In this document: positions 3,625 to 22,433 of the stretch, one piece after another
Layout of the letters: each line of letters opens with the position of its first letter
How positions within the stretch are numbered: the first letter of the stretch is position 1
DNA from: a virus
Length of the DNA stretch: 25,788 nt
IMG/VR virus record: IMGVR_UViG_3300044490_000073
Coordinates: 1-25,788 of that record
Reading direction: 5' to 3' (one strand)
Program-made: the position numbers and the translations under genes
The notes under the pieces: generated by a model
The model's input: the letters and a program-made list of their open reading frames with translations, nothing else
Told to the model about the DNA's origin: nothing
Databases searched by the model: none

Positions 3625-3863
3625 CACTTCTCTCCTTGCGGCGGGAACCGCTTGTCGCGCTCGGCAAGCATCTTGTCGGCATACCGCGCATGGTCCTCTG
3701 GGTCCATGGGCGTTCCACCGAGAATGCGAACGAGCCTTGCCGCAGCGTACAGGTCCCATGCGCGGCGGCGCTCGCTCTTGGTGACTTCGTCCAGGATGGT
3801 AACACGCACCTCCCCAGGAAGCTGATTGTAGCAATCACACTCTTGCGGGTTCTGCTCGGGCAT
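3624..3863 (-). CDS. Hypothetical protein, 79 aa
   Basis: A soluble, charged protein of unknown function. It has an early CDCYNQLPGEVRV segment followed by an Arg/Glu-rich helix and an acidic PEDHARYADKMLAERD region. The start ATG 3863 overlaps the TGA of the acetyltransferase gene (TGATG), and its own TGA overlaps the start of the small membrane protein, so it sits inside a coupled chain. No enzymatic motif is visible. Confidence 0.6.
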   Translation of the reverse strand: MPEQNPQECDCYNQLPGEVRVTILDEVTKSERRRAWDLYAAARLVRILGGTPMDPEDHARYADKMLAERDKRFPPQGEK

Positions 3864-4333
3864 CAGTCTTCCTCCTTCGGCAAGCGGTAGACGAAATGGT
3901 AGGCATCGTTGCCGTTGTCAAGACGCAGCACGTTCAGCGCGCGGAAGCCCATGTAGCGCAGGAACAGGTGGCAGCCGAGGTTCGTATCGCGCACGTCGCA
4001 GACGATTCGTGCGCGCTGCTGCGAGAGCTTGCCGACCAGCTTGCCCACCAGGAACTCGCCCACGCCACGGCGGCGGTACTGCCACGCCACGGCGAGGTTC
4101 TGCATGACGACCCTGGAGCGCATGAGCTCGTAGATGATGAAGCCCACCACCTCATCGCCGTGCTCGGCCACGAAGCCGATCACGTTGCGCTTGCCCAGCG
4201 CCTCCTTGAAGTCGTCGTAGGTCCAGGGGTCGTCGTAGGACTCCTGCTCGATGGCCATGACCTCTTCCATGTCGCGGCGCAGCATGAAACGGCACTTGAC
4301 TGACAGCCTGCGCGAGTTAAGCATCTTCGCCAT
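3863..4333 (-). CDS. GNAT-family N-acetyltransferase, RimI-like
   Basis: Predicted to transfer an acetyl group from acetyl-CoA to an amino group, in RimI the N-terminal amine of ribosomal protein S18. The 156-residue protein from ATG 4333 covers a complete GNAT domain. Visible parts are the RRDMEEVMAIEQESYDDPW N-terminal strand-helix, the central FVAEHGDEVVGFIIYEL strands (about 54-70), the acetyl-CoA loop QYRRRGVG (85-92), and a C-terminal YMGFRALNVLR segment. The start was chosen because GGAGG lies seven bases upstream; an upstream ATG at 4351 overlaps the terminase stop but has no such site. The wording of the conserved blocks recalls planctomycete RimI proteins, which is from memory. Phage GNAT proteins can act on phage or host proteins or on modified DNA bases, and the substrate cannot be read from sequence. 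Confidence 0.85.
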   Translation of the reverse strand: MAKMLNSRRLSVKCRFMLRRDMEEVMAIEQESYDDPWTYDDFKEALGKRNVIGFVAEHGDEVVGFIIYELMRSRVVMQNLAVAWQYRRRGVGEFLVGKLVGKLSQQRARIVCDVRDTNLGCHLFLRYMGFRALNVLRLDNGNDAYHFVYRLPKEED

Positions 4334-4347
4334 GATCGTACCTCCGT

Positions 4348-5883
4348 TCATACGCGCACGACTCCCGCCTGCTGGCGCACGGCACGCGGCGTCAAGCCGA
4401 ATACGGCCAGCACCAGCGCGTCTGCTTCATCGGGGCTGCACCCTAACAGGTCGGTGAGGGTTTGCTTCGTCTGGTTCTCGTCGCGGCGGGCCTTCGGGGG
4501 CAGGTACAGTCGCCCTTCCTCGTCGTACAGCAACGGCAGCGGACTCAATTGCCTACGCAACTCAGTATACTCGGCGGGCAGGGCAAAGCCCTTGCCGTTG
4601 GCCGGGTCCAATCGCTCGCGCAGTAGGCCGTACATCTCGGCGCGCCGGTTCTTGTAGACATAGCGCACCTCGGTCTGCCGCTTGCGCTGCTCCAGCGTGG
4701 CCATGCCATGCCTCAGCTCGGGGCTGGCCGACTCGCCGAAGGCCACGGTGCGCACGTTGTGTCCTTGCAGCCGCAAGCGGTCAGCGTGCTGCTTGCCGCC
4801 GCCCCCCGCGTCGAACAGCACGTTGCTCGCCAGCACGTTGTATTCCCGCATGAGCGCCAGCGTGCGGGCCGTGATAACGCTCGTGTCGGGCGTGCGCAGA
4901 GCCTCCAGGTAGATCAGTCCGAACTCGTCGCATACGGCATAGGCCGTCTTGTCGCCCCCCGCTGCGCTGTCGATCCCCAGCGTGCGCGCGTTGCGCTTGC
5001 TGCCGGCCAATTCGCGCGCTCGCGCCTCAGCGCGGTTGAGCCAGTCAGGCGGGTATAGCAGCACCTCAGCGCCTTCGTAGAACTCGGCGTCAAGGCCGAT
5101 GCTCTGCCGCACCTTGTCCCAGTTGGCGCGCCGCTCCAGGTACTCGGCGTAGGGCAGCACGCCGGGAACCAGCATCTCGCCCGTAAAGGCTTCGTCCCGC
5201 GCCAACTGCTTCAGCGCAAGGCGGACATTGGGGCTGGCCTCGGCCTTGATGCGGATAACCTTGCTGCGATAGGTCGTTCCGTCCACCGTGCGCTTGTCGC
5301 CGGCCTTCACGCCCTTGTAGAAGAAATTGTTGCAGGGGTAGGGATTGCCGATCACCAGCTTGCGGTCAGCCCAGGTGTCGGCGCGCTCGTAGCTTACGTC
5401 GTCGACGCCCGAGGCTTCGTCGGCAATGAAGAGTGTACGCGGCACGCCGTCTCCCGTCTTGGCGATGTGGTGTCCCAGCATCCCCTCGCCCTTCGCTGCT
5501 ACCCGGCCAATCAGGTAGCTCAGGCCGTCCACCTGTCCCTTGATCACCTTGCGCAGATGCAGGTGGTTGACCAGCAGCGGTCCGCCCTGCTCCGTTGCCA
5601 ACGGGTACTCGCTCGTCTGCAAGAAGCGCCTGATCTCTCCCCATAGCACCCCCTCCAACTGTGTGTGGTCTACGGAAGTGGTAACGACGCGGCAAGGCGT
5701 GCGCGACAGGAAGAACCACAGCGCGATGAACGCGGCCACGAAGTCCTTGCCGAGCATGTTGCCGGCCGGAACGTAGGTCTCGTGGTTGTCTCGCACCGAG
5801 TAGATGATCTCCCGCTGTTCCTTGTAGAAGGTAACGTGCGGCCAGCACAACTCGGCCAGCGCCAGCGGGTCAACTATCTGCAT
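4348..5883 (-). CDS. terL: Terminase large subunit
   Basis: ATP-driven DNA packaging motor and headful or cos-cutting nuclease that docks on the portal. It is 511 residues, normal length for the family. The ATPase half has a P-loop in the deviant form GNMLGKD (41-47) after VPA, Walker B LFIADEAS (151-158, with D155 and E156), and the GNPYP coupling segment (179-183). The RNase H-like nuclease half has acidic residues at D305 (LGIDSAAGGDKT), D358 (VLFDAGGGG) and D485/D488 (SPDEADALVLA). The Asp where Thr or Ser usually follows the P-loop Lys is unusual. The start overlaps the upstream small gene by 14 bases. The small subunit is not adjacent but nearly 4 kb upstream. Confidence 0.95.
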   Translation of the reverse strand: MQIVDPLALAELCWPHVTFYKEQREIIYSVRDNHETYVPAGNMLGKDFVAAFIALWFFLSRTPCRVVTTSVDHTQLEGVLWGEIRRFLQTSEYPLATEQGGPLLVNHLHLRKVIKGQVDGLSYLIGRVAAKGEGMLGHHIAKTGDGVPRTLFIADEASGVDDVSYERADTWADRKLVIGNPYPCNNFFYKGVKAGDKRTVDGTTYRSKVIRIKAEASPNVRLALKQLARDEAFTGEMLVPGVLPYAEYLERRANWDKVRQSIGLDAEFYEGAEVLLYPPDWLNRAEARARELAGSKRNARTLGIDSAAGGDKTAYAVCDEFGLIYLEALRTPDTSVITARTLALMREYNVLASNVLFDAGGGGKQHADRLRLQGHNVRTVAFGESASPELRHGMATLEQRKRQTEVRYVYKNRRAEMYGLLRERLDPANGKGFALPAEYTELRRQLSPLPLLYDEEGRLYLPPKARRDENQTKQTLTDLLGCSPDEADALVLAVFGLTPRAVRQQAGVVRV

Positions 5884-10401: not shown

Positions 10402-12612
10402 TCAATCACTGATCACTTCGGCGTAGAGCCGGTGGAACCGCTCGGTCAAACGCCAGCGTGTCTTGCCTGCCAGCCCCTTCACGTCTGATTGGAAGGACTC
10501 GGCTACGCCAATCGCCTTGAGGAAGCGTAGCAGCACCCGCGTCTTCTCTTCGGTACGATTCGTGTGCATTGCAAGGGTCTGTACGGGCAGCCCCGCTTGC
10601 CCGCTGTGGTAGAGGTGGGCCGCAATCGCCATGCTCAGCCCGCGCGAGGTGTCTAGCGCCACGCGGCTTACCCGCTGCATCACTGCGCTTGACACCGTCG
10701 TTTCGTTGAGCACGAAGGCGAGGCACTTCGCCAGCCGCACGAGCTGGCTGACCAGCCGTGTAGCAAACTCGCGTTCGGCGTGCTCTTCCTGTCTTACGCT
10801 CGGCCGCGCCCGCATGAAGGCCGTAAACTTCCCCAGCCGCGTACAACGCCGCTTGGCCGCGTCGTCCATCTGCACCTGCGCCAGCTTGGCCGCCGCGTGC
10901 TTGCGCAAGTGCCCTACGTAGCCGCCCGTGAGCTGCATCGCCTCGGCCAGCTCGGGCTCGTACTGGCTTATGGCCTGCCCGTTGCTTTCGGCGGCCATGT
11001 TTCGGTCGGCTTGGTTGGCCTTGCGCCACAGGATCTCGTCCTCCAGGTCCTCGTCAATGCCCTCCATGATGACGCAATCCAGGAACCGCTCGCCCAGCTC
11101 GCTCTGGTCCAAAGCTCTCAACGAAGAAGTGCCGCACAGCAGCCATGTCATGCGGATGCCCGCGTAGTCCTTGCTCATCGCGTTGCGGTAGTGCGTGCGG
11201 GCCGTGCTGTCGTACAGGTCGCGGGCCTCGGCCAGTATCTGCGGCAGGTTCGGGCTCTGCAACAGCGTGTCGCCATCCTTGGTCACTAACGTCTTGTCCT
11301 TCACCAGCGGGATGAGGCTGTTGTCCACCTCCTTGCCCTGCTCCCCTTCCTGCCGGTAGCCGCTGTGGAAACCTCGTATCGTGCTCTTGGCCAATACATA
11401 CTGCGCGTTGACACTGAGGGCTTCGCACAACGTGCTCTTGCCACAGGCTGCCGGCCCAATCACCTTCACCCAGAGCTGGTCTCCGACGGCCTTCGTGCTC
11501 GCGACCGAGGCCAGCATCACGGCCAGCGCATGGTCCAGCCCATCCGTCCACTTCAATGCCTTGCGCCACGCATTGATCACATCCTTCCAGCGACTGCACG
11601 GCGCGCACTCCATCGCAACACTATGCCTCCCCGAGCGCACGCGCGGCACATCCACCAGCCAGTCTTGCGGAACGTCGCGCACCTTCGCAAGCAGCGTGCC
11701 CAGCGCCGCCACCCTGTCTGCCGGCGCGCGGCTCTTGGTCAGGTGATCGCGCACATCGTAGCCGTTCGGCAGCGCCGGGTCGTAGCCGTCTTGCCCCCAG
11801 CACAGGTAGCGCACCACGGTCGGCGGCTCAGGCGCAGCCGACAGGATACGCGCCACGCGGCGCATCCCTTCATACCCCGCGCTGCCCGCACGCTCGCGAG
11901 GATAGTCGTTGTCGTACAGCAGCACCACATCCATCCCAGCAAACAGCGGCAGCCACGACTCGAAGAACGTCGTGCAGCCCGGCACCGCCAGCACAGCCGC
12001 TCTGCTGAGCAGACTGCGGTCGGGGTTCGCCGTGAGCACCAGCTTGCCATCGTCGACCGACTTGGCGATGCGCAGCGTCTCCCACAGCGCCAGCCCGTCC
12101 CACGGCCCTTCGCACAGATAGACCGTGCGACAGCCCTTGCCCGGCAACCCCGGCGCACCGTGCAGAGCGTGGCCCAGCCCCGGCACAGGCAGCAGCCGGC
12201 GTCCCTGCCCGTGCCGCACATAGTGATAGAGCTGTTTCAGGCAGCCGTCGGCAGTGTAACCCGGCACAACCCAGTCACCCGTAAGCCGACTGCGGCAGAT
12301 ACCCCACGCCATCAGCGTCTCGGGGTACAGCAGCCGGCGCGACGCCATCAGCTCACTGTAGTCCTCGGTCTGCTCGTCGCTTGCGTCATGCAGCAACTCC
12401 AGGAACTGGCTGGCGTTCCCGCCGCCCTTGTCCGTCCCTTCACCGCAGACCCAGCACCGCCACAGCCCGGTCTGCGCGTTGACGCTGAACTTGCCCGCGC
12501 GCTTGCACCACGGACAGTCGCCGGTGAGCTGCTCGCCCACGCCCAGCAACGGCACGCCCAGGAACTCGTAAAGACGACGATAGTTCACCACGCCTGTTGA
12601 AACGCTTGGCAT
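10402..12612 (-). CDS. Primase-helicase: zinc finger, TOPRIM, AAA+-type ATPase
   Basis: Predicted to prime and unwind DNA at the phage fork. 736 residues from ATG 12612; the TGATG overlap with the upstream gene and AAGGA seven bases before it decide the start. N-terminal zinc binding: CPWC (33-36) and CWVC (53-56), as in DnaG-type and T7 gp4 primases. TOPRIM catalytic positions: E168 in CEGPWDG and D234/D236 in LLYDND. ATPase: P-loop GPAACGKST (386-394), a probable sensor segment LLCGTSSLRALDQ (491-503) and an arginine-rich ERFLDC near 508. The C-terminal third is helical and ends in a probable winged helix (about 665-735). The ATPase block resembles SF3 or D5-like helicases rather than the RecA-type T7 gp4 motor, so the fusion is less common. 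It is encoded next to DNA precursor enzymes. Confidence 0.85.
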   Translation of the reverse strand: MPSVSTGVVNYRRLYEFLGVPLLGVGEQLTGDCPWCKRAGKFSVNAQTGLWRCWVCGEGTDKGGGNASQFLELLHDASDEQTEDYSELMASRRLLYPETLMAWGICRSRLTGDWVVPGYTADGCLKQLYHYVRHGQGRRLLPVPGLGHALHGAPGLPGKGCRTVYLCEGPWDGLALWETLRIAKSVDDGKLVLTANPDRSLLSRAAVLAVPGCTTFFESWLPLFAGMDVVLLYDNDYPRERAGSAGYEGMRRVARILSAAPEPPTVVRYLCWGQDGYDPALPNGYDVRDHLTKSRAPADRVAALGTLLAKVRDVPQDWLVDVPRVRSGRHSVAMECAPCSRWKDVINAWRKALKWTDGLDHALAVMLASVASTKAVGDQLWVKVIGPAACGKSTLCEALSVNAQYVLAKSTIRGFHSGYRQEGEQGKEVDNSLIPLVKDKTLVTKDGDTLLQSPNLPQILAEARDLYDSTARTHYRNAMSKDYAGIRMTWLLCGTSSLRALDQSELGERFLDCVIMEGIDEDLEDEILWRKANQADRNMAAESNGQAISQYEPELAEAMQLTGGYVGHLRKHAAAKLAQVQMDDAAKRRCTRLGKFTAFMRARPSVRQEEHAEREFATRLVSQLVRLAKCLAFVLNETTVSSAVMQRVSRVALDTSRGLSMAIAAHLYHSGQAGLPVQTLAMHTNRTEEKTRVLLRFLKAIGVAESFQSDVKGLAGKTRWRLTERFHRLYAEVISD

Positions 12613-13157
12613 CAGTAGTTCCTTACTTCCCAGAACACGGTATTGAATCCAGCCACCGTCCCCCAGCACACGTCGTAGACAGAGAACTCCACGACGTGGC
12701 CAGGGTATCGCTCCAACAGGTCGCGCAGCCAATTCCAGCTACGCTCGTTCATCGCTTGTCTCACCAGCACCATCGCCGCCAGTCCGCAGGCATACGCGGT
12801 GCAGGCTTGCAACGCATCACGCATCGGCAGCTTGACCGTACTGTAGGTCAGTTGCCAGCCGCCCACATCCTCCATTACTTCGCCCTGAATTACCGTGCGC
12901 GGCGTGGGAGCCATCGCGCTGATATACAGCCCGTCCACGCCATACTCAGTAGCAGCCCGCTGCCACACGCCCGCCAGTTTACGCCGTGACACGTTGTACC
13001 AAGTGCGCCCGCCGGCCGTGCGGTTGCGCACGTGAAACGGACCGCGTGCCGCACTGGCCAAGCAGTCCTCCAGCTTGGGCCACGTTGGCGCAGCGTTGCC
13101 GAACTCGCCGGCAGCGTAGCGGCGCACGAAGTCGGCCTTGTCCAATACGGGTCGCAT
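12612..13157 (-). CDS. Hypothetical phage protein between primase and thymidylate synthase
   Basis: 181 residues starting at ATG 13157, with no strong ribosome-binding site. The beginning, ADFVRRYAAGEFGNAAPTW, has the look of a conserved motif, but I cannot name its family. The rest alternates strands and helices without visible catalytic residues; there is a VMEDVGGWQLTYSTVKLP beta segment and a Trp-rich C-terminus. It ends in TGATG overlap with the primase-helicase gene and lies six bases after the synthase gene, so it is part of the same message and may work in replication. Confidence 0.65.
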   Translation of the reverse strand: MRPVLDKADFVRRYAAGEFGNAAPTWPKLEDCLASAARGPFHVRNRTAGGRTWYNVSRRKLAGVWQRAATEYGVDGLYISAMAPTPRTVIQGEVMEDVGGWQLTYSTVKLPMRDALQACTAYACGLAAMVLVRQAMNERSWNWLRDLLERYPGHVVEFSVYDVCWGTVAGFNTVFWEVRNY

Positions 13158-13163
13158 ACTTGT

Positions 13164-14216
13164 TCAACCGTCAAGCGCTGCGGTGGGCGTAAGCGGCGCG
13201 CGGCTTTGGGCTTCCCAGCGTTCCTTGCGGCGCTGCAACCACAGCTTGCCCGCCAGCCGCCAGTCGCTCGCGGTAACTTGCTCCATCAGCTCCAGCGCGC
13301 TGTTGTCGCCGTAGTACAGCCGCAGCTTGTGCTTGCGGAAGGCAGCCATCATGGGCCGCGCAACGTGCTCCAGGAAGGGTTCCTTGAACGGTGCGCCGTC
13401 AATGCTGTCCACGAACCTTCGCACCTCGGCGTCGAAGAGCTTGACATTCCAGCACAGCACCACTCCGTCGCTGCTGACGTCACGACCGTAGGCCAGCGGC
13501 CGAGACCCGTACACCGTCAGGTCGTTGTCCAACCACTCTTTCGGCTTCCAGTTGTCAAGGTAAACATGCAGATTGTTTGTGATCTGGTGGTAACGGCCCA
13601 TCGGCACGTTCAACCGACTGGCCACGTACTCCAGCAGAACGGCGAACTGCACGGCGTTCGCGCCCAGCAGCCCCCAGATCAGGTCGTTGCTGCGGTTGCA
13701 CACCGTCACTTCCAGCTTGCCGTTCACCAAAGCGAAGTAGGCGTGCGTATTGCAGCAAACGTCCTTCGTCCAACTTACGTTCATCAGGTCGTCTTGCACG
13801 TTCCACATCTGCAAGACCGCCCGCCGACTGTCGGGCTTGCTGCGCAGGTGATCAACGATCAGGTCGAGCTGGTCAACCCCGTGCCGCCAGCGGTAGCCGT
13901 AAGCACCATTGAACGTGATGCCGTTGTCGCTGGCCACGTCAGCGATGTGACTGTTGTAGTACCGCAGTGGCTCGACATCATTGCGACCGGCCAGCAGCCA
14001 CAACGCTTCGAACAGATGGAAGAAAGGATTGGCGTCACGTGCGGGATGCAGCAGCACGCATTCGCGCGGATAGGCGTAGCTCACCACAACCGGCTCGGGC
14101 ACCATGAGTACATCGCCGGCGCGGCTGCTCGTGCGCACCGTCGGCAGGTCGCGGTTGTGAATGCCGCGCACCAGCCCCTGAAAGGCGTCGTTCACGTTGC
14201 GGAAGAAGAAGTGCAT
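13164..14216 (-). CDS. Thymidylate synthase / deoxypyrimidine hydroxymethylase family protein
   Basis: The family methylates or hydroxymethylates dUMP or dCMP at C5 using methylene-tetrahydrofolate. 350 residues from ATG 14216 (GGAG six bases upstream; a TTG four codons earlier would be a longer start). Visible are the phosphate-binding SRRAVLQMW (R131, R132), the catalytic Cys at VCCNTH (C154/C155; bacterial ThyA has PCH), RSND (175-178) and GANAVQF with N187, the Asn that in ThyA favours dUMP over dCMP. The Trp-rich IWDEW segment of bacterial ThyA is replaced by HIADVA (90-95). Loss of those Trp residues and the nearby predicted 5-hmdU kinase make dUMP hydroxymethylase a serious alternative. 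The gene overlaps the DUF4406 gene by 25 bases. Confidence 0.85.
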   Translation of the reverse strand: MHFFFRNVNDAFQGLVRGIHNRDLPTVRTSSRAGDVLMVPEPVVVSYAYPRECVLLHPARDANPFFHLFEALWLLAGRNDVEPLRYYNSHIADVASDNGITFNGAYGYRWRHGVDQLDLIVDHLRSKPDSRRAVLQMWNVQDDLMNVSWTKDVCCNTHAYFALVNGKLEVTVCNRSNDLIWGLLGANAVQFAVLLEYVASRLNVPMGRYHQITNNLHVYLDNWKPKEWLDNDLTVYGSRPLAYGRDVSSDGVVLCWNVKLFDAEVRRFVDSIDGAPFKEPFLEHVARPMMAAFRKHKLRLYYGDNSALELMEQVTASDWRLAGKLWLQRRKERWEAQSRAPLTPTAALDG

Positions 14217-14584
14217 GACTTGCTCCAAGGTAAGAGTTCGGGGTGCAGCGGCTCCATTGTCACTGCATCGTACACGGCCAGTCCCAGGAAGTGCGCCAAC
14301 GCCAGTTCGGCGGTAGCGCCCACGCTGCGCTCCCAGCCCGGCAGTAGTGCAATCGCACTAGATGCCATGATGGCGGCGCTATCCACGGCCCAGACATGCC
14401 GCAGATGATCAAGCGTTACCACGCTGTCCGGCAGGTAGCCTAGCGCGGCATTCGTGGCACGCGGACTGAACACTTGCCAGCCCGCAGCGACCCACGCCTG
14501 TTCGGCCTGCCGGAAAGCGGCGGCGTTCCAGCCCGGCAGCCCGCGAAATGGCCCGGCAAGGTAGATTTTCGGTTGGTTGCTCAT
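14192..14584 (-). CDS. DUF4406 / nucleoside 2-deoxyribosyltransferase-like protein
   Basis: 130 residues. Begins with KIYLAGPFRGLPGWN (6-20), the typical nucleotide-binding start of this fold, followed by a Trp-rich helix, then DSAAIMASSAIALLPGWERS (68-87) and GATAELALAHFLGL with E93 in the position of the family's catalytic Glu. These proteins cleave or transfer the base of deoxynucleosides or nucleotides, and phage versions often sit beside nucleotide-modifying enzymes. Here it is the first gene of the leftward block and overlaps the synthase. A plausible job is hydrolysing the unmodified host nucleotide, as in phages that replace thymidine, but that is inference. The start ATG 14584 lies 11 bases after a perfect TATAAT. 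Confidence 0.8.
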   Translation of the reverse strand: MSNQPKIYLAGPFRGLPGWNAAAFRQAEQAWVAAGWQVFSPRATNAALGYLPDSVVTLDHLRHVWAVDSAAIMASSAIALLPGWERSVGATAELALAHFLGLAVYDAVTMEPLHPELLPWSKSCTSSSAT

Positions 14585-14595
14585 AACTGTATTCC

Positions 14596-14601
14596 ATTAT
14601 A
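14596..14601 (-). promoter_or_regulatory. TATAAT -10 box upstream of the leftward nucleotide/replication block
   Basis: A perfect TATAAT reads leftwards at 14601-14596. No good -35 box lies 16-18 bases upstream (GGAATT at 17). A transcript from it would start within about five bases of ATG 14584, giving a leaderless or nearly leaderless message, so either the promoter is elsewhere in this gap or the first gene is translated leaderless. Confidence 0.35.
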
Positions 14602-14646
14602 CGGCAAGGACTTACGACAATTCCGCGCCAAGGCGGCTAAATCTCC

Positions 14647-14674
14647 TTGCAATTACTGGACGATTAGCAATAAT
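14647..14674 (+). promoter_or_regulatory. Sigma-70-like promoter for the plus-strand locus
   Basis: TTGCAA (14647-14652, four of six) and AATAAT (14669-14674, five of six) are separated by 16 bases. The predicted start near 14681 precedes the plus-strand gene by about 60 bases. Together with the leftward -10 box this makes 14585-14741 a divergent promoter region; I see no other gene in it. Confidence 0.4.
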
Positions 14675-14741
14675 GAACACGTTGGCTGCGAGTGCAACCA
14701 ACCAGCCGCCCGCCTGATTGCGGGCAACACGGGTGCCAGCC

Positions 14742-14903
14742 ATGTTTCCTGCCAACCACAAGCCGCTGCCGGTTGCCGTGGCCTACACAGGCCGACACGG
14801 CAAGCGCTGCACACGGCGCTTTGCCAACGCCTACGCGGCACGGCAATTCTACGTGGCCAAGGACAAGCACGGTGCGCACCCCCAAGTCCTAAGGAGCGAT
14901 GCT
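14742..14903 (+). CDS. N-terminal extension of, or separate small gene before, the winged-helix protein
   Basis: The frame of the downstream protein stays open upstream, and ATG 14742 would add 54 residues: a basic stretch with PVAVAYTGRHGKRC, RRFANAYAARQFY and VAKDKHGAHP that reads like a real domain. No ribosome-binding site precedes it. The frame passes through a five-C run (14879-14883). One fewer C would end the reading at TAA 14890-14892, inside the Shine-Dalgarno sequence of the next start, giving a stand-alone 49-residue gene. So this may be an alternative long N-terminus, a programmed frameshift, or a sequencing error between two genes. Confidence 0.5.
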
Positions 14904-15350
14904 ATGAGTACTGGTCTGACCGACGTTGCCGCCACCACCCCCGCCCCCGCCCCCGCTGCCAAGGCCCCCAAGCCCAAGCAGACCAAGGCCGCCGCCCCCA
15001 AGGCCGCCAAGCAGGCCAAGCCCAAGGCCGCCAAGCCCAAGGCCAAGGCCGACAAGGCCAACAAGGCCGAGCAGCCCAAGGACCCCAACGCGCTCACGGG
15101 CATGGCTGTGGCCGTGCTGAAGGCGCTGGCCAAGGGCAAGGAGCTGACCAAGGCGCAACTGAGCAAGGTGACCGGGGGTCGCGTGACCTCCAAGCTGTTG
15201 GGGGCCGCCAACCGGGATGGCTTTGGCGTGCAGGGCGGCGGCTTGCTGGAGCGCGGCTTGATCAAGGCCGCCAAGCACGAGGACAGCCGCGCCACCGTGT
15301 ACACGATCACCGCTGCCGGCAACAAGGCGCTGGCCAAGGCCAACGGCTAG
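14904..15350 (+). CDS. Histone H1-like protein: Ala/Lys/Pro-rich tail plus winged-helix domain
   Basis: The only plus-strand gene. 148 residues from ATG 14904, chosen for AAGGAG seven bases upstream. Residues about 14-60 consist almost only of Ala, Lys, Pro and Gln, with PKAAK and KAKADK repeats, like the tail of linker histones or bacterial AlgP/Hc1-type proteins. Residues about 64-145 form a compact domain compatible with a winged helix: VLKALAKGKELTKAQLSKVT, GGGLLERGLIKAAKH and a wing strand ATVYTITAAGNKAL. It should bind DNA with little sequence preference via the tail and perhaps specifically via the wing. It is transcribed away from all neighbours between its own promoter and a strong terminator, and may compact DNA or regulate the divergent promoters. 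Confidence 0.8.
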   Translation: MSTGLTDVAATTPAPAPAAKAPKPKQTKAAAPKAAKQAKPKAAKPKAKADKANKAEQPKDPNALTGMAVAVLKALAKGKELTKAQLSKVTGGRVTSKLLGAANRDGFGVQGGGLLERGLIKAAKHEDSRATVYTITAAGNKALAKANG

Positions 15351-15381
15351 CAGCCTGCCAGCCACCACCGCTAACCCGCAT

Positions 15382-15415
15382 AAGCCCCGTAGCAACGCTA
15401 CGGGGCTTTTATTTT
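15382..15415 (+). terminator. Intrinsic terminator of the plus-strand gene
   Basis: A perfect 12-bp stem (aagccccgtagc / gctacggggctt) closes a three-base loop (aac) and is followed by ttttatttt. It begins 31 bases after the TAG of the winged-helix gene. The stop codon of the leftward gene (15398) lies inside the hairpin; on the minus strand the stem is not followed by a good T-run, so it acts mainly rightwards, though it may also shield the 3' end of the converging message. Confidence 0.9.
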
Positions 15416-16195
15416 CGACTGACGACGCCATAGGCTGTGGCACCACTGGCAGTTCTTAGGGCCGTTACAGGCATTGCAGTCGGGTGTGGCTAGCTTGCCA
15501 GCCGGGCAGCCGCAGCCAGTTGACCGTATCAATACTGAACGGTTGTTGATCACCAGCCTGCGCCCGCACTCACAACGCACAACCCACCCCGTGCCCGGCT
15601 GGAACCGCTCGACTAACAGATGCCCGAACCGCAGCCCTTGTAGCCCTTGCAGTGCCGCCCTAGATTGCGCGCGCACTGCGTAGACACGCGGCCAGCGCCG
15701 TTGGAGTTGCTCCCATTCCCGGTCGCTAATATCTACGGTTGGCGTGCCAGCGAACGTAATCTCGTAGGCAACGGTGCGCGCAGGCCATTCCAGATACTCG
15801 CCTAGCTTAGCCATTGTGCGCGTCACGTCCATGAAGCTGTCAAACCGCGAGTTGCGCGGCAACACAGTCAGCGCAGGGTACTTGGCAGCGAACTTGCTGG
15901 CTTCAGCACGCAACAGCTTCTTCGTCGTGCCCTGCCAGTACAACAAGTTAGCAGTCTGGTACTCGCCCCAATCCGGGTGGCGCGCTTGCATACGCCGCAC
16001 GTGCGCGCCCAAGTCGAACTTCACCCAGATTGCCCACAGCGGTCTGTCGAACCGCAGTTGACAGGGAGTTAGGTCCGGCGGGCAACCAACGTGCCGATTG
16101 TAGTTCTTGCAGCCGCGCGGGTGCCCGTGATAGGCGCACGCGCACAGCCCCCAGACACGGTCATCCACAACAGGTGATATAACGGACCACGGCAT
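15398..16195 (-). CDS. Cys-rich metal-binding protein with DUF2284-like N-terminus and C-terminal zinc ribbon
   Basis: 265 residues from ATG 16195; a frame extending to 16471 overlaps the kinase and is a shadow. The N-terminus has CACAYHGHPRGCKNYNR followed by GCPP (C18, C20, C29, C38), similar to the Cys-rich start of DUF2284 predicted metal-binding proteins. The middle contains RFDSFMDVTRTMAKLGEYLE and a WPARTVAYEITFAG strand. The C-terminus adds two possible zinc sites: VVRCECGRR...TGCGC and CNACNGPKNCQWCH. Metal or Fe-S binding is likely; the reaction is unknown. It is the last gene of the operon containing the kinase and the aGPT-Pplase-family protein, so a role in base modification is a reasonable guess. 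Confidence 0.65.
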   Translation of the reverse strand: MPWSVISPVVDDRVWGLCACAYHGHPRGCKNYNRHVGCPPDLTPCQLRFDRPLWAIWVKFDLGAHVRRMQARHPDWGEYQTANLLYWQGTTKKLLRAEASKFAAKYPALTVLPRNSRFDSFMDVTRTMAKLGEYLEWPARTVAYEITFAGTPTVDISDREWEQLQRRWPRVYAVRAQSRAALQGLQGLRFGHLLVERFQPGTGWVVRCECGRRLVINNRSVLIRSTGCGCPAGKLATPDCNACNGPKNCQWCHSLWRRQSKIKAP

Positions 16196-16217
16196 GAAAT
16201 TACCCCACTCAAAATAC

Positions 16218-16778
16218 TCAGGGTCTATACAGCAGGCCGAGTAGTTGCGGCAGCGGCTTGCGGTAGTCCAGCAAGACCACAGCCCGCCCGAACTGGTTCT
16301 GCGCCTTGGCCAACACAGCTTGATTGGAATGGTAGATGCGCACGACGCTCTTATTAGGATCGAACGGCTTCGTGTTGCCGCGCCGCTGTCGCCTTGCAAC
16401 AATGCGCTGAATACACACGGCCAACGGCGTGTCCAGGAAGGCGAACACGAACTGCGCGCCGTAGACCTCACTGTCCCTGCCGATGTTCCCGTAGCTGTTG
16501 CTGATCAACGCTCCCTCAAACAGAACGTGTCCCAGCTTTGCCAAACGCGTCACGCGCGGCCAGATTTCCGCGTAAGGCTGGATACTATCGCAGCCACCGC
16601 ATTCGTTCACATAACTGCCGACAACGTAGAGCCGCGCACCGTTGCGCAACGTCATAACGTAGTTCTGCGGTCTACCGCGCTTATCCACAGACTCCGGCGT
16701 GGCGTGGTACTTGGCAAGCACCTGTCGTACGAGATAGCTTTTACCGCTGCCGTGCGTACCGCGTAATGAAATGATCAC
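16218..16778 (-). CDS. P-loop kinase, predicted 5-hydroxymethyl-dU DNA kinase type
   Basis: 186 residues from GTG 16778 (GGAG seven bases upstream, two bases after the previous stop). The P-loop GTHGSGKS (7-14) is followed by a conserved-looking GSYVNECGGCDSI (54-66), a HVLFEGALIS strand-loop (84-93), LDTPLAVC (115-122) and the lid RR (129-130). These segments match, from memory, the small P-loop kinases proposed to phosphorylate 5-hydroxymethyl-dU in phage DNA (as in phages ViI, M6, SP10 and phiW-14). An ordinary deoxynucleotide kinase is the alternative. The adjacent upstream gene belongs to the aGPT-Pplase family, which supports the base-modification reading. Confidence 0.7.
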   Translation of the reverse strand: MIISLRGTHGSGKSYLVRQVLAKYHATPESVDKRGRPQNYVMTLRNGARLYVVGSYVNECGGCDSIQPYAEIWPRVTRLAKLGHVLFEGALISNSYGNIGRDSEVYGAQFVFAFLDTPLAVCIQRIVARRQRRGNTKPFDPNKSVVRIYHSNQAVLAKAQNQFGRAVVLLDYRKPLPQLLGLLYRP

Positions 16779-16780
16779 AG

Positions 16781-17620
16781 TCAGACTCCGCTGTACTTGC
16801 GCTTGGGCTTGCCCTGTCCCCACAGCATCCGTTCATACTTATCCCATTCGCACAGACAGTTCTGCGCGTCCTGCGCGTGCAGCAATACGGGCAACTGCCA
16901 GCGCAGCTCTTCCAACTTGGCTTGCCAGTCACTTTCACGCCATGCCGCGCCTACAGGCCGGGAATGCAAGCGGTTCATCCCACGCCGGCTGCCCGGCCCG
17001 CTGGCAGCCCAAGTATACCAGTCTGCGGCATTCAGTAAGACGGGCGTGTACTTTGTGTCCGCGATCACCTGCCCGGCCATAAAACCACTCACTCCGTTGA
17101 GGGTTAGCAACCGCTTTGCGAACGCGGCCAGCGTGTCCCCCGGCTGAGGAGTGATTGTTGCACGGCGCTCCCACGCCGGCACAAGCACGCGGCGCAGCAC
17201 ATATTCAATCTTGTCCATTGCCACGCCGTTTGTAGACACGATGTAAGCGCCGTTGAACACCGTGTTCCCTGTCCGGCGCAACCGTCGCAAGCAACGCCGC
17301 GTCTTGGTCACTGACCAGTCGGCGTCCACAGGTAACACGGCCAGCGTGCTCGGCAGGTTGAACAACCGCGCCATGAGCATGTAGAACCAGCAGACTTCGG
17401 GCATTATAGCCAACGGCGCGCGCCAGTGGCTCGCTATCCACAGCGTCACCTTGTCGTGCTCGCGCTGCACGTTGCAGAAGCGGTACGATTGCAGGATGGG
17501 GTCGTCCGTCCAGGGCTTGGACGCGCCCAACTGGCGGACACGCCGTATATGCTCCCGCTCCGTGATCCAGTAGGCCAAGCGGTGCAGCGGGTCCAGCTTG
17601 CGTACAGCTTGCAGATTCAT
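16781..17620 (-). CDS. aGPT-Pplase / 5-hmdU DNA kinase helical family protein
   Basis: 279 residues. The N-terminal block ITEREHIRRVRQLGASKPWT (19-38), followed by DDPILQSYRFCNVQREHDKV (39-58), matches the signature of the alpha-glutamyl/putrescinyl-thymine pyrophosphorylase-like family (helix-hairpin-helix DNA-glycosylase-like fold), which recurs in phages that hypermodify thymidine via a pyrophosphorylated 5-hydroxymethyl-dU. Other visible parts are NTVFNGAYIV (about 118-127), a LTLNGVSGFMAGQVIADTKY segment like a helix-hairpin-helix (173-192), and LLNAADWYTWAASGPGSRRG (195-214). GAGG lies five bases before ATG 17620. It is followed after two bases by the P-loop kinase gene. Assignment is from remembered motifs; no search was run. 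Confidence 0.7.
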   Translation of the reverse strand: MNLQAVRKLDPLHRLAYWITEREHIRRVRQLGASKPWTDDPILQSYRFCNVQREHDKVTLWIASHWRAPLAIMPEVCWFYMLMARLFNLPSTLAVLPVDADWSVTKTRRCLRRLRRTGNTVFNGAYIVSTNGVAMDKIEYVLRRVLVPAWERRATITPQPGDTLAAFAKRLLTLNGVSGFMAGQVIADTKYTPVLLNAADWYTWAASGPGSRRGMNRLHSRPVGAAWRESDWQAKLEELRWQLPVLLHAQDAQNCLCEWDKYERMLWGQGKPKRKYSGV

Positions 17621-17633
17621 ACAGTCCTCGACG

Positions 17634-18248
17634 TTAAGGGTTCAGTCTACGGCCGCGCGCGTTGCGCTCGCCAACCAGCTTCCCATACTCGAACGGGCTC
17701 ATAGCCCCCTTCTCTTCGTTGCAACGCACACAGCTTGCCGCACAATTGAAGTCTACCGTCTTGCCGTGGTTGGCTACGGCAACAATGTGATCGCCCACCA
17801 CCCCGCCGCCGCTACAGTCACAGCCGCAGTAGAAGCACCGACCGCCCTGCCGGCGCAGCGCCGCCCAAAGCTGCTCGTCCGTGAACGTGCGGGGTTGCAC
17901 GGGTTCCACCTGACACGTGACCGCCCGGTAGGCGGCTTCCACACAGGCAAGATAGAGGTTGAATTCCTGGTATCGCCCTGTCTTGTCAGCGCGCTGGTAC
18001 AGCCGATTCGGCGTGATTTTGATGCCCGTGCGCGCGTAGGTTTCCCTACGAATCTGCTCAAAGGTAGTCTCACGGTTCAGCACGGCCTGCATGACTTGCG
18101 GACAGAGCGCATTCGTGCGCTGCCACAAGACATACGGCGAACGGCAGCCCGCCTCGTACTTGCGCAGGCAGTAGGCCAGCATCTTCAAGCAGGCAAGCTC
18201 ATCGGTGTTCCACCGCAAGATCCTACGTTGCGCCCTGTAGCGGCTCAT
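17634..18248 (-). CDS. HNH endonuclease
   Basis: 204 residues. The C-terminal third carries a zinc-bound HNH fold: CFYC (138-141), DH (153-154), N168 and CVRCN (173-177) followed by EEKG. The N-terminal 120 residues are helical and basic and probably contact DNA. The start ATG 18248 overlaps the previous stop as ATGA. It sits between the polymerase and the modification genes. It could be a free-standing homing-type nuclease or a nuclease that targets unmodified host DNA, a known strategy of phages with modified bases. The second role is inference from position. Confidence 0.85.
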   Translation of the reverse strand: MSRYRAQRRILRWNTDELACLKMLAYCLRKYEAGCRSPYVLWQRTNALCPQVMQAVLNRETTFEQIRRETYARTGIKITPNRLYQRADKTGRYQEFNLYLACVEAAYRAVTCQVEPVQPRTFTDEQLWAALRRQGGRCFYCGCDCSGGGVVGDHIVAVANHGKTVDFNCAASCVRCNEEKGAMSPFEYGKLVGERNARGRRLNP

Positions 18249-18445
18249 GCGGGGATTGCCTCCAACACAGTGCAGCCATGCGGCTCATCCGTTACGACGG
18301 CTAGTGTACCGCCACAGGTGCAGAGGTAGACTTCCAGACTGATTGAACTGTTTGGGACAAGCAAGCTGCACGCCGGGTCTAACCCGACAACAACGTCCAA
18401 ATCCCAATCCCAGTCCCACTGCTTATCGCACCAGCTACAAGTCAT
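18245..18445 (-). CDS. Small Cys/Trp-rich zinc-binding protein
   Basis: 66 residues from ATG 18445, which overlaps the polymerase stop as ATGA (AAAGGA upstream), and ending in ATGA overlap with the HNH gene. It begins with CSWC (3-6), followed by an Asp/Trp-alternating stretch (DKQWDWDWDLD), and has a CTC pair later, the four Cys ligands of a probable zinc ribbon. Function unknown; the tight coupling on both sides supports expression. Confidence 0.65.
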   Translation of the reverse strand: MTCSWCDKQWDWDWDLDVVVGLDPACSLLVPNSSISLEVYLCTCGGTLAVVTDEPHGCTVLEAIPA

Positions 18446-20472
18446 ATCGCCATTCCTTTGCTCCATGTTTCGGTATGGTACTCAACGCTGACAGGCGTTG
18501 GCAAGCCGATGTCATTGCCGCCCTGCTCCATCAACCGTTTGATGCGCCTGATCTTGGGCAGGTTTGTCTTCCAGGGCTGCGGGCCGGTGCCCTTGGGGAA
18601 GTCGAACACCAGCTCGTCATGAACCTGCATGATCATGCGGTACTCGCCGCCCAGCGTGCGCAGGTATTCGTAGCACCTGATCATCGCCTTCATCATCCAC
18701 CACATCGCCGTTCCCTGCACGTGATAGTTCAGCGGCACAGTGGGTTGAATGCCGCCCCACGCGCTACGCGAGCACAGCAGCGGATAGCCGCGCTCAGGGT
18801 CAACCGTCCTGTCGGGCATCGTCTCGACGTAGCCGTGCTGCTCGGCGAAGGCAATCATGCGCTCATTGAGCTGCTTGATCTTCTGGAAGCGCGCCTGCAC
18901 CTTGGCTTGCCCGCCCGGCACGTGATACGCGCGGTCGGCCGTGCCGCTGGCTTCCACCGCGCCGTACTGCACTGCGAAGTTCCCGTTCTTCACCCACTGG
19001 TACAGCGTGGCCTTGTACCTGTCCTTGAAACTGACACCGTCGCGCAGGCACTCGTCGAACTTCTCGGGATACAGGACATGCGCCACTAGGAGGTGGTTGC
19101 TGCCGTAGTAGGGCGGCTCATCAGGCTGCTCAAACAGCGCAACCATTTCCGTTTCGCCGGCCTCGTAAGCCGGTATGCGCAGCTCGATATTCTTCGCGTC
19201 GAGTGACCACCACTCCCTGCCCGGCGCAGGCCCGAAACAGTAGCGCAGGTTGAACCCATCCTGCTTGCTGATGTTCTGCTCGTTCGGGTTGCTGCTGCTC
19301 CAGCGCAGCGTATCCGTACCCGTAGGATTGAGCGAGGGGTGCAGCACGAACCAGTCATTACGCGGCAGCGGCAGCCAGAACCGCGTGTACGATTGCAGGT
19401 AGTTCACCGCCGTCATGCGCTTGCGGTAGTCGCGCAAGCCCTGCACGAACTTGCGCTCGCGGCTGCGCTCGGGCAGCGTCACAAGCCAGTGTTCGAGGAC
19501 GGTCTTGTCCATGCTGTCGTTGCCGCCCTTCGTGCGCTTGTTGGACTTCAGTCCAAGCTGCCCGTACACAACCGCTTTGAGCGCGTTGCTCGTGCCGCTT
19601 ACCGGCAGGTCCGCTAGCTTGCCGCCGCTCAGGTTGATACAGACGCGGCGGCACTTGTCGGCCTCCAAGCGGTAGGTCTTGCTCAGCTCTTTCAACCGTG
19701 AGCCGCTCACCGTGACGCCGGTCTGCTCCATACTGACCACGATGGGCAGCACCTTCAGGCGCTCGGCATAGATGCGCGCCAGCCCACGCCGCTCAATCAG
19801 CTCCATCTGCCGCCTGTAAAGCGCGACCGTCGTGGCACTGTCGCCGTTGGCATACTCAGCGCACACCGTCCAGTAGGGATGGTCGGCAGGCTCGCCACGT
19901 TCGGCAGCCACGCGGCGCGGCAGCCAATAGTCGTTGCTCGCCGCCGAACCCTTGGCTGACGGCATACAGGGCAACCCGGCTTCGGCCAGCAGCCAATCCT
20001 CGTGCTCGCGGCGCGCCCAGCGCCGGCACTCATTCACAGCTTCCTTCAGAGCGACTTCCAGCGGCAGGATGTTCACCTTCAGGTACACCGCCGCCATAGT
20101 CGTCAGGTCGTGCGGCTGATTGCTGGCCAGCAGATGCCCGGCCAACAGCGTGTCGCGCACCTTGTTCCAGTCCCACTGTAGCTCCCAGCCGTGGTCGGCG
20201 AACAGCAGCCGCAACCCTGCATAGTCGAACTTGGGGTTCTGTAGCACGAGCAGGTCGGCACGGTTGATTGCCTCCTGTACTTCCTCAAGGTCTTGCTTGT
20301 TGGCTTGCACCCGGCGCGTGAGTGGGTCAACGTCCCATTCCCAATAGGTGTTCTGCCCGTCCTCGTCGCAGACCGTTACCAGGAACGGCCGCGCGCCGTG
20401 ATACAGGTCCAGCCCGGTCGTCTCGGTATCGAGTGCGATTACCCTAGTCTTGCTCGGTGGTGGCTTAGGCAC
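18442..20472 (-). CDS. DNA polymerase, family A (Pol I-like)
   Basis: Replicative polymerase with a 3'-5' proofreading domain. 676 residues from GTG 20472 (AAGGAG seven bases upstream; eight-base overlap with the previous gene). Exonuclease: DTETTG (15-20), NPKFD (79-83), YANGD (207-211). Polymerase: conserved LRWSSSNPNEQNI (389-401), motif A SLDAKNIELR (423-432) with catalytic D425, finger motif KNGNFAVQYG (K495, Y503), motif C QVHDE (616-620). All catalytic residues are present. Lys-Asn replaces the usual Ser-Gln in motif A, a variant also found in other phage polymerases. No 5'-3' exonuclease domain is present, normal for phage. Confidence 0.97.
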   Translation of the reverse strand: MPKPPPSKTRVIALDTETTGLDLYHGARPFLVTVCDEDGQNTYWEWDVDPLTRRVQANKQDLEEVQEAINRADLLVLQNPKFDYAGLRLLFADHGWELQWDWNKVRDTLLAGHLLASNQPHDLTTMAAVYLKVNILPLEVALKEAVNECRRWARREHEDWLLAEAGLPCMPSAKGSAASNDYWLPRRVAAERGEPADHPYWTVCAEYANGDSATTVALYRRQMELIERRGLARIYAERLKVLPIVVSMEQTGVTVSGSRLKELSKTYRLEADKCRRVCINLSGGKLADLPVSGTSNALKAVVYGQLGLKSNKRTKGGNDSMDKTVLEHWLVTLPERSRERKFVQGLRDYRKRMTAVNYLQSYTRFWLPLPRNDWFVLHPSLNPTGTDTLRWSSSNPNEQNISKQDGFNLRYCFGPAPGREWWSLDAKNIELRIPAYEAGETEMVALFEQPDEPPYYGSNHLLVAHVLYPEKFDECLRDGVSFKDRYKATLYQWVKNGNFAVQYGAVEASGTADRAYHVPGGQAKVQARFQKIKQLNERMIAFAEQHGYVETMPDRTVDPERGYPLLCSRSAWGGIQPTVPLNYHVQGTAMWWMMKAMIRCYEYLRTLGGEYRMIMQVHDELVFDFPKGTGPQPWKTNLPKIRRIKRLMEQGGNDIGLPTPVSVEYHTETWSKGMAI

Positions 20473-22247: not shown

Positions 22248-22433
22248 CTACTTCACTGCATGGCTGCGCTCTTTGGCCAGCCGTACCTCCAAGCGATCGA
22301 CGGGGATGCCTGTATTAGCCACGATCCCCAGCCGCACCTTGTCGCCGCGAATTTCGACCACTTCGACCTCCACGCGGTTCTCGCCCTCGCCAATCACCAC
22401 AACCTCACCGACCTTGCGGTTCAAGATCAGCAC
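22248..22433 (-). CDS. csrA: CsrA/RsmA-family RNA-binding translational regulator
   Basis: 61 residues, full length for the family. CsrA dimers bind GGA motifs near ribosome-binding sites and block or stabilise messages. The sequence begins MLILNRKVGE and keeps the RNA-contact residues L4 and R6; the core EVEVVEIRGDKVRLGI and the IPVDRLEV end with R47 (R44 in E. coli) are also conserved. GTG 22433 is preceded by GGAG at eight bases. It lies between the recombination block and the acidic protein, in the same leftward message. It might retune host carbon or motility regulons, or time phage translation. Confidence 0.93.
   Translation of the reverse strand: MLILNRKVGEVVVIGEGENRVEVEVVEIRGDKVRLGIVANTGIPVDRLEVRLAKERSHAVK

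Follow-up and report, generated by a model that had tools for sequence, protein, structure and literature searches.

The stretch of DNA analysed here (the window) is the entire linear IMG/VR virus record IMGVR_UViG_3300044490_000073, of 25,788 bases, which is probably a fragment. It carries a module of genes, all on the minus strand, related to those with which phages hypermodify thymine; the exchange of thymine for 5-hydroxymethyluracil and phosphorylation of this base in DNA are a phage counter to host defences. A first-pass annotation, made from the sequence alone, had assigned four genes to the module, encoding a thymidylate synthase (TS) homologue (P0001), a DUF4406 protein, a P-loop kinase (P0004) and a protein of the family PF18723 (P0005, HMUDK_hel, referred to below as hel). 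The four open reading frames (ORFs) are present on the minus strand at the positions given in table 1 and do belong to the module, to which a fifth gene not listed there, encoding the Cys/His-rich protein P0003 (15398-16195), has to be added.

We consider it probable that the locus represents the known front end of phage thymine hypermodification combined with a finishing step of a variant and possibly new kind. The predicted synthesis of 5-hydroxymethyl-deoxyuridine (5-hmdU) and the phosphorylation of the base are well supported by homology, by residues and by conserved gene order. To this extent the earlier proposal that 5-hmdU is made and then activated on DNA holds, whereas its assignment of the last-step enzyme does not.

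Table 1. Genes of the putative thymine modification module (first five rows) and adjoining genes. L215, L178 and L182 are related IMG/VR records discussed in the text.
Feature	Position	Strand	Evidence
dUMP hydroxymethylase-type thymidylate synthase homologue P0001 (putative)	13164..14216	-	PF00303 3e-22, phrog_5131 8e-96
DUF4406 protein, nucleoside 2-deoxyribosyltransferase-like	14192..14584	-	PF14359 2e-15, phrog_355 4e-20
DUF2284-related Cys/His-rich P0003, C-terminal Cys-rich zinc-ribbon-like part	15398..16195	-	L215 homologue, phmmer 7e-33
P-loop kinase P0004, 5-hmdU DNA kinase homologue	16218..16778	-	BLAST to M6 gp54 6e-10
HMUDK_hel / aGPT-Pplase1 protein P0005, DNA-glycosylase-like fold (model)	16781..17620	-	PF18723 7e-37, 127.7 bits
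HNH endonuclease-like ORF adjoining module	17634..18248	-	PF01844 1e-6; L215, same position
Small Cys-rich ORF P0007	18245..18466	-	tblastn 1e-14 to L215 copy, sited between hel and kinase
Family A DNA polymerase	18442..20472	-	PF00476 7e-35; syntenic in L215, L178, L182
ORF P0008 directly after TS, kept in lineage	12612..13157	-	52% to L215, 48% to L178

Putative dUMP hydroxymethylase and 5-hmdU DNA kinase

P0001 is 37-42% identical to the TS of M6, Ab18, Pam3, P26218 and Rhizobium I65, which are hypermodifying or similarly equipped phages (40% to M6 gp58; 42% to Pam3_52 and Ab18 gp14). Alignment with E. coli ThyA, T4 gp42 and SPO1 gp29 indicates that it retains the catalytic Cys146, Arg166, Asp169, Asn177 (uracil), His207 and Tyr209; His147 is replaced by Asn and the Trp80 segment is lost, both as in SPO1 gp29, a dUMP hydroxymethylase. 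The absence of the IWDEW tryptophan segment had been noted previously and is confirmed. In its residues P0001 thus matches the dUMP hydroxymethylase pattern (Cys and Asn177 kept, His147 and Trp80 replaced or lost), and we read it as such an enzyme on the basis of these residues. The DUF4406 gene, whose family assignment agrees with the first-pass annotation, overlaps the start of the TS gene, and its product may have a role in the nucleotide pool.

P0004 contains the motifs GTHGSGKS (Walker A), ECGGCDSI and HVLFEG, the last two of which had already been pointed out; the Walker A and EG motifs are invariant columns in the kinase alignment. It is 30% identical to M6 gp54, which we take to be the purified 5-hmdU DNA kinase of that phage. 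Other BLAST matches include Pam3_49 (1e-18) and P26218 gp15 (8e-22). The M6 kinase modifies TG dinucleotides in 5-hmdU DNA, a result reported as unpublished in its source (PMC6449724). Homology to gp54, the Walker A and EG motifs and the linkage to TS and PF18723 genes place P0004 among the homologues of the 5-hmdU DNA kinase, and its predicted activity, phosphorylation of 5-hmdU in DNA, is well supported by homology. Among the phages named earlier as carrying relatives of the module (ViI, M6, SP10 and phiW-14), relatives were recovered in M6 and in a ViI-like Kuttervirus; in addition, two Delftia phage records match P0004.

The family phrog_800, which matches P0004, carries the label 'terminase small subunit', and the same label is attached to M6 gp54, Ab18 gp12 and PaMx11 gp49 in RefSeq/PHROGs. 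On homologues of the 5-hmdU DNA kinase, this label is apparently a propagated misannotation.

The HMUDK_hel protein and its genomic associations

P0005 is a clear member of PF18723 (cut-off 25 bits), and its gene is separated from the kinase gene by 2 bp, as expected from the direct adjacency reported in the first-pass annotation. Its homologues are deposited as alpha-glutamyl/putrescinyl thymine pyrophosphorylase clade 1, so the label 'aGPT-Pplase family' previously given to P0005 is correct in the older naming; clade 1, however, is not a demonstrated amino acid:DNA transferase. The demonstrated transferase family is PF18724 (ADDT, clade 2), which includes PaMx11 gp46, and identification of P0005 as a transferase of known function was rejected.

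A structural model of P0005 built from 41 sequences has a predicted local distance difference test (pLDDT) score of 95.8. Foldseek gave nothing below E 0.001, the best match being an 8-oxoguanine glycosylase. With VIA-align, the top match is the PaMx11 5-phosphomethyl-dU (5-PmdU) glycinyltransferase 8z2n (Z 10.7, 4.0 A, 218 residues). The 8-oxoguanine glycosylases come out practically level with it (Z 10.6, 181-185 residues), and most of the rows that follow are further DNA glycosylases. Taken alone, Z values of this size are only moderate when a model is mostly helical, but nearly all of the top rows belong to one superfamily. Since 8z2n is PaMx11 gp46, which the ADDT profile matches at 8e-95, hel and ADDT seem to have a common fold. 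Comparison of the two profiles (191 hel and 99 ADDT sequences) with hhalign gave a weak similarity (P 5e-4, probability 32%) over the C-terminal half, including an LC-containing C-terminal motif. Common ancestry of hel and ADDT is likely, though not proven. No members of PF18723 were found among solved structures.

The genomic associations of these families were surveyed in IMG/VR, taking the best-scoring 80 hel, 80 ADDT and 80 kinase loci and counting co-occurrence only where 4 kb or more was available on each side of the anchor gene; the loci are not independent, many marine hel loci being near-copies. TS was found in 45 of the 46 hel-anchored loci, the kinase in 10 and ADDT in five. The 46 ADDT-anchored loci include 44 with the kinase and 40 with hel, and the 36 kinase-anchored loci include 34 with hel, 31 with TS and 12 with ADDT according to our own profile. 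This last count is too low, as Pfam detects ADDT in 17 of 18 such records; the idea that the kinase commonly occurs without ADDT, derived from our profile, was overturned, since divergent ADDT copies are recognized by Pfam in most of the kinase-anchored records.

Most of those hel loci that have TS and lack the kinase are of pelagiphage-type appearance (the clades are described in PMC9599517). In a large series of them (L041-L089) the kinase is undetected in nearly all, and there hel must have a kinase-independent role. In one locus of this series (L064), the genes near hel include those for a 2OG-Fe(II) oxygenase and a TET-associated glycosyltransferase. Conversely, P26218 and ctfPj964 combine the kinase with TS and ADDT, and hel has no match within the stretches fetched. 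Hel thus tracks the hydroxymethylase more than the kinase. The earlier claim that the base is activated by the products of the last two genes of the module is consequently firm for the kinase and not for hel, which is present in 40 of the 46 ADDT-anchored loci and yet, in most hel-anchored loci, occurs without a detectable kinase. The name 'HMUDK helical domain' may therefore mislead, for a protein that tracks the hydroxymethylase (45/46) and not the kinase (10/46), and that has an apparent fold kinship with the 5-PmdU glycinyltransferase.

Related modules and the gene following the kinase

The M6 cluster (gp51-gp58) resembles the window in having a hydroxymethylase-type TS, the kinase gp54 and the PF18723 protein gp55 near a family A polymerase. 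It also encodes ADDT (gp51), a PALP protein dependent on pyridoxal phosphate (PLP; gp52), a radical S-adenosylmethionine (SAM) protein (gp53) and Nmad5 (gp56), none of which was found in the window; in the window the order of hel and kinase is reversed, and P0003 and DUF4406 are present. PaMx11 is similar to the window in its consecutive genes for the kinase (gp49), the PF18723 protein (gp50) and TS (gp51), but has ADDT (gp46, the glycinyltransferase of PDB 8z2n), a flavin adenine dinucleotide (FAD) enzyme (gp47) and an acetyltransferase (gp48) by the kinase. The sole GNAT acetyltransferase gene found in the window (3863-4351, minus strand) is distant, beside the terminase, and overlaps the putative gene of the terminase large subunit where that gene ends; nothing was found that ties it to the module, and it was rejected as a PaMx11-like tailoring enzyme.

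PF18724 has zero matches in the window at E <= 10, and a 13-row ADDT profile likewise gives none. A widened profile containing divergent copies, run against the window ORFs with hmmsearch --max, gave nothing significant (best E 0.088, for a plus-strand ORF). Profile searches for PLP (PALP), radical-SAM, PF18746 and DAO proteins also returned no matches, in agreement with the previous remark that PLP and radical-SAM enzymes are lacking. In this fragment record, the complete M6/ViI-type pathway to an amino-acid thymine (ADDT with a PLP or radical-SAM enzyme) was not found. In the IMG/VR loci for which the distance was measured, ADDT is either 0.6-3.7 kb away from hel or the next gene after the kinase; upstream of hel the window extends for 8.2 kb, and downstream of it for 16.8 kb.

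The kinase-anchored scan identified a syntenic record of 55 kb, L215 (IMGVR_UViG_3300005253_003498), in which the polymerase, HNH, hel, kinase, P0003 homologue, TS, P0008 and primase-helicase genes occur in the same order as in the window. The P0003 homologue directly follows the kinase and overlaps its end. L215 differs from the window in having a 5'-nucleotidase (NT5C) before TS, where the window has DUF4406, and in the small Cys-rich gene, which has moved between hel and the kinase. Its 55 kb contain no ADDT match, no radical SAM and no DAO; it is to the other kinase records in the same Pfam test that the 17 of 18 with ADDT refer.

Three other records, L178, L182 and L183, have hel, kinase and TS in common with the window, and L178 and L182 also the polymerase. 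Their kinases are 57% (L178) and 49% (L182 and L183) identical to P0004. In all three, unlike the window, the gene right after the kinase is ADDT (L182, PF18724 4e-25; L183, PF18724 5e-7; L178, own profile 3.5e-67), followed by an FAD enzyme in L178 and by other genes in L182 and L183. Within this lineage there is therefore a clean difference: the slot after the kinase is occupied by the P0003 family in the window and L215, and by ADDT in L178, L182 and L183. The L182 (8542-12348) and L183 (8563-11661) loci comprise hel, the kinase, a divergent ADDT and, one to two genes on, a myo-inositol-1-phosphate-synthase-like gene (L182, PF01658 7e-25), and a TET-associated glycosyltransferase is also present in L182; this points to a modification cassette based on a sugar or on inositol in the lineage of the window.

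The P0003 gene starts 22 bp after the kinase gene. P0003 alone retrieved one phage relative, in the 735-kb uncultured phage LR756501, which has no PF18723 match; none was found in bacterial genomes. A four-row alignment retrieved 18 IMG/VR loci, two of them known before. Typical of the family are the motif C-x(3)-Y-x(2)-H-x(3)-C, a third Cys that is frequently part of CPP, and LYWQ. It shares a Cys/His motif with DUF2284 (PF10050, predicted metal-binding; cut-off 25), which two members exceed (L259, 35.0 bits; L269, 28.9 bits) and others miss just below, and for this reason we call P0003 a DUF2284 relative; by its own score it would not be a member, as P0003 itself does not match PF10050 at E <= 1, and its L215 homologue gives no match either. 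Titles and abstracts gave no link between DUF2284 and DNA modification, and no function of DUF2284 was found in the literature searched.

Members of the P0003 family sit beside kinase-like genes in unrelated viruses. In L273 (4784-8486) and L270 (1597-4720), radical-SAM-like, kinase-like and DUF2284-related genes are grouped, the last overlapping the kinase-like gene in L273 and lying near the other two in L270; hel and TS are undetected in the fetched stretches. In L269 (4240-8471), ADDT-like, amidoligase-like, P-loop kinase and DUF2284-related genes are clustered, followed by a DNA methyltransferase-like ORF. None of these genes is present in the fetched stretch of most other P0003-family loci, many of which come from large records. 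One family ORF (L092, 7968-8438) lacks the N-terminal Cys motif or has it in another frame, perhaps through a frameshift.

Proposed pathway and alternatives

In the pathway that we propose, the TS homologue would make 5-hydroxymethyl-dUMP, which would be converted to the triphosphate, and the phage family A polymerase would copy 5-hmdUTP into DNA. The kinase would then phosphorylate 5-hmdU in DNA to 5-PmdU; hel may flip the same base and bind or convert it, as kinase partner or transferase, and P0003 might add a later or parallel step. The product would then be at least 5-PmdU, probably finished by P0003 and/or hel. Because P0003 occupies the slot of the usual next enzyme, the finished base is unpredictable from known pathways. 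The suggestion in the first-pass annotation that the final base is perhaps new, or completed by genes outside the window, stands and is strengthened by the missing ADDT.

If a DUF2284-related partner finishes the phosphorylated base, a new class of enzyme would be added to those of phage DNA hypermodification. It is conceivable, but rather doubtful, that P0003-type proteins are such a class of DNA-base modification enzymes, acting after the 5-hmdU DNA kinase instead of or beside ADDT and yielding an undescribed thymine derivative; we rate this low because the pooled counts are not significant and L269 has both genes.

Several observations weigh against the proposed reading. ADDT is absent from both PF18724-tested kinase records with P0003 and present in about 23 of the 33 others, a difference that falls short of significance (p about 0.11), and about 10 other kinase-bearing records have neither an ADDT match nor a P0003 gene, so that the P0003-ADDT link is statistically not firm. 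L269 indicates that P0003 need not replace ADDT, and such replacement was rejected as a general rule. ADDT is also variable: the 13-row profile overlooked the L182 copy found by Pfam, and a hidden copy in the window is possible. The AlphaFold model of P0003, from two sequences, has a pLDDT of 34. Finally, in the proposed check of the kinase against the HMUDK family, homology to M6 gp54 was found, but P0004 misses the cut-off of PF18748 (15.2 against 27 bits), as do the deposited kinases Ab18 gp12 and P26218 gp15; M6 gp54 itself matches at 8e-18.

The window being a linear fragment, ADDT and the PLP, radical-SAM, FAD or acetyltransferase tailoring genes may sit beyond the 25.8 kb, in which case the pathway would be an ordinary one and the base a known amino-acid-derived thymine. 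The frequency of ADDT in the other kinase records is consistent with this, as is its presence, with FAD, in L178, whose kinase is the closest found among the relatives. We nevertheless regard it as unlikely, given the usual proximity of ADDT to hel or the kinase, the roughly 8 and 16 kb without ADDT in the window and the absence of an ADDT match from the syntenic L215 as well.

Less likely still, the pathway could stop at 5-PmdU (or its pyrophosphate), P0003 being a regulator, nuclease-like or an unrelated gene. Larger kinase records without an ADDT match exist (L010, 44.7 kb; L017, 50 kb; L021, 104 kb), and a phiW-14 mutant, which accumulates pyrophosphorylated hydroxymethyluracil in its DNA, shows that phosphorylated intermediates occur in phage DNA and that polymerized DNA can carry them (PMC5977210). 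However, no phage with 5-PmdU as its finished base was found in the literature searched, and both P0003 and hel are conserved in the module. An ordinary, dTMP-forming TS together with a kinase for nucleotides or RNA, and hence no hypermodification, is very improbable: Pfam gives thymidylate synthase only and the kinase is under the HMUDK cut-off, but the SPO1-like changes at His147 and in the Trp segment, the clear PF18723 neighbour and the gene order conserved with M6 and PaMx11 argue against it.

Some minor features were also recorded. In two of the kinase records without an ADDT match, a gene of 220-226 codons overlaps the kinase start (L010, 8740-9402; L017, 1827-2507); the L010 copy is Nmad2-like, at 23.6 bits, below the cut-off. 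On the opposite strand within the module, the window has an ORF rich in Lys and Ala whose end may be a winged helix (14904-15350, plus strand), and Lys-rich ORFs also occur ahead of the kinase in L025, L026 and L031. Outside the module, a CsrA-like ORF of 61 amino acids (22248-22433, minus strand) has a similar stretch in L178, near a gene resembling that for single-stranded DNA-binding protein (tblastn 1e-7).

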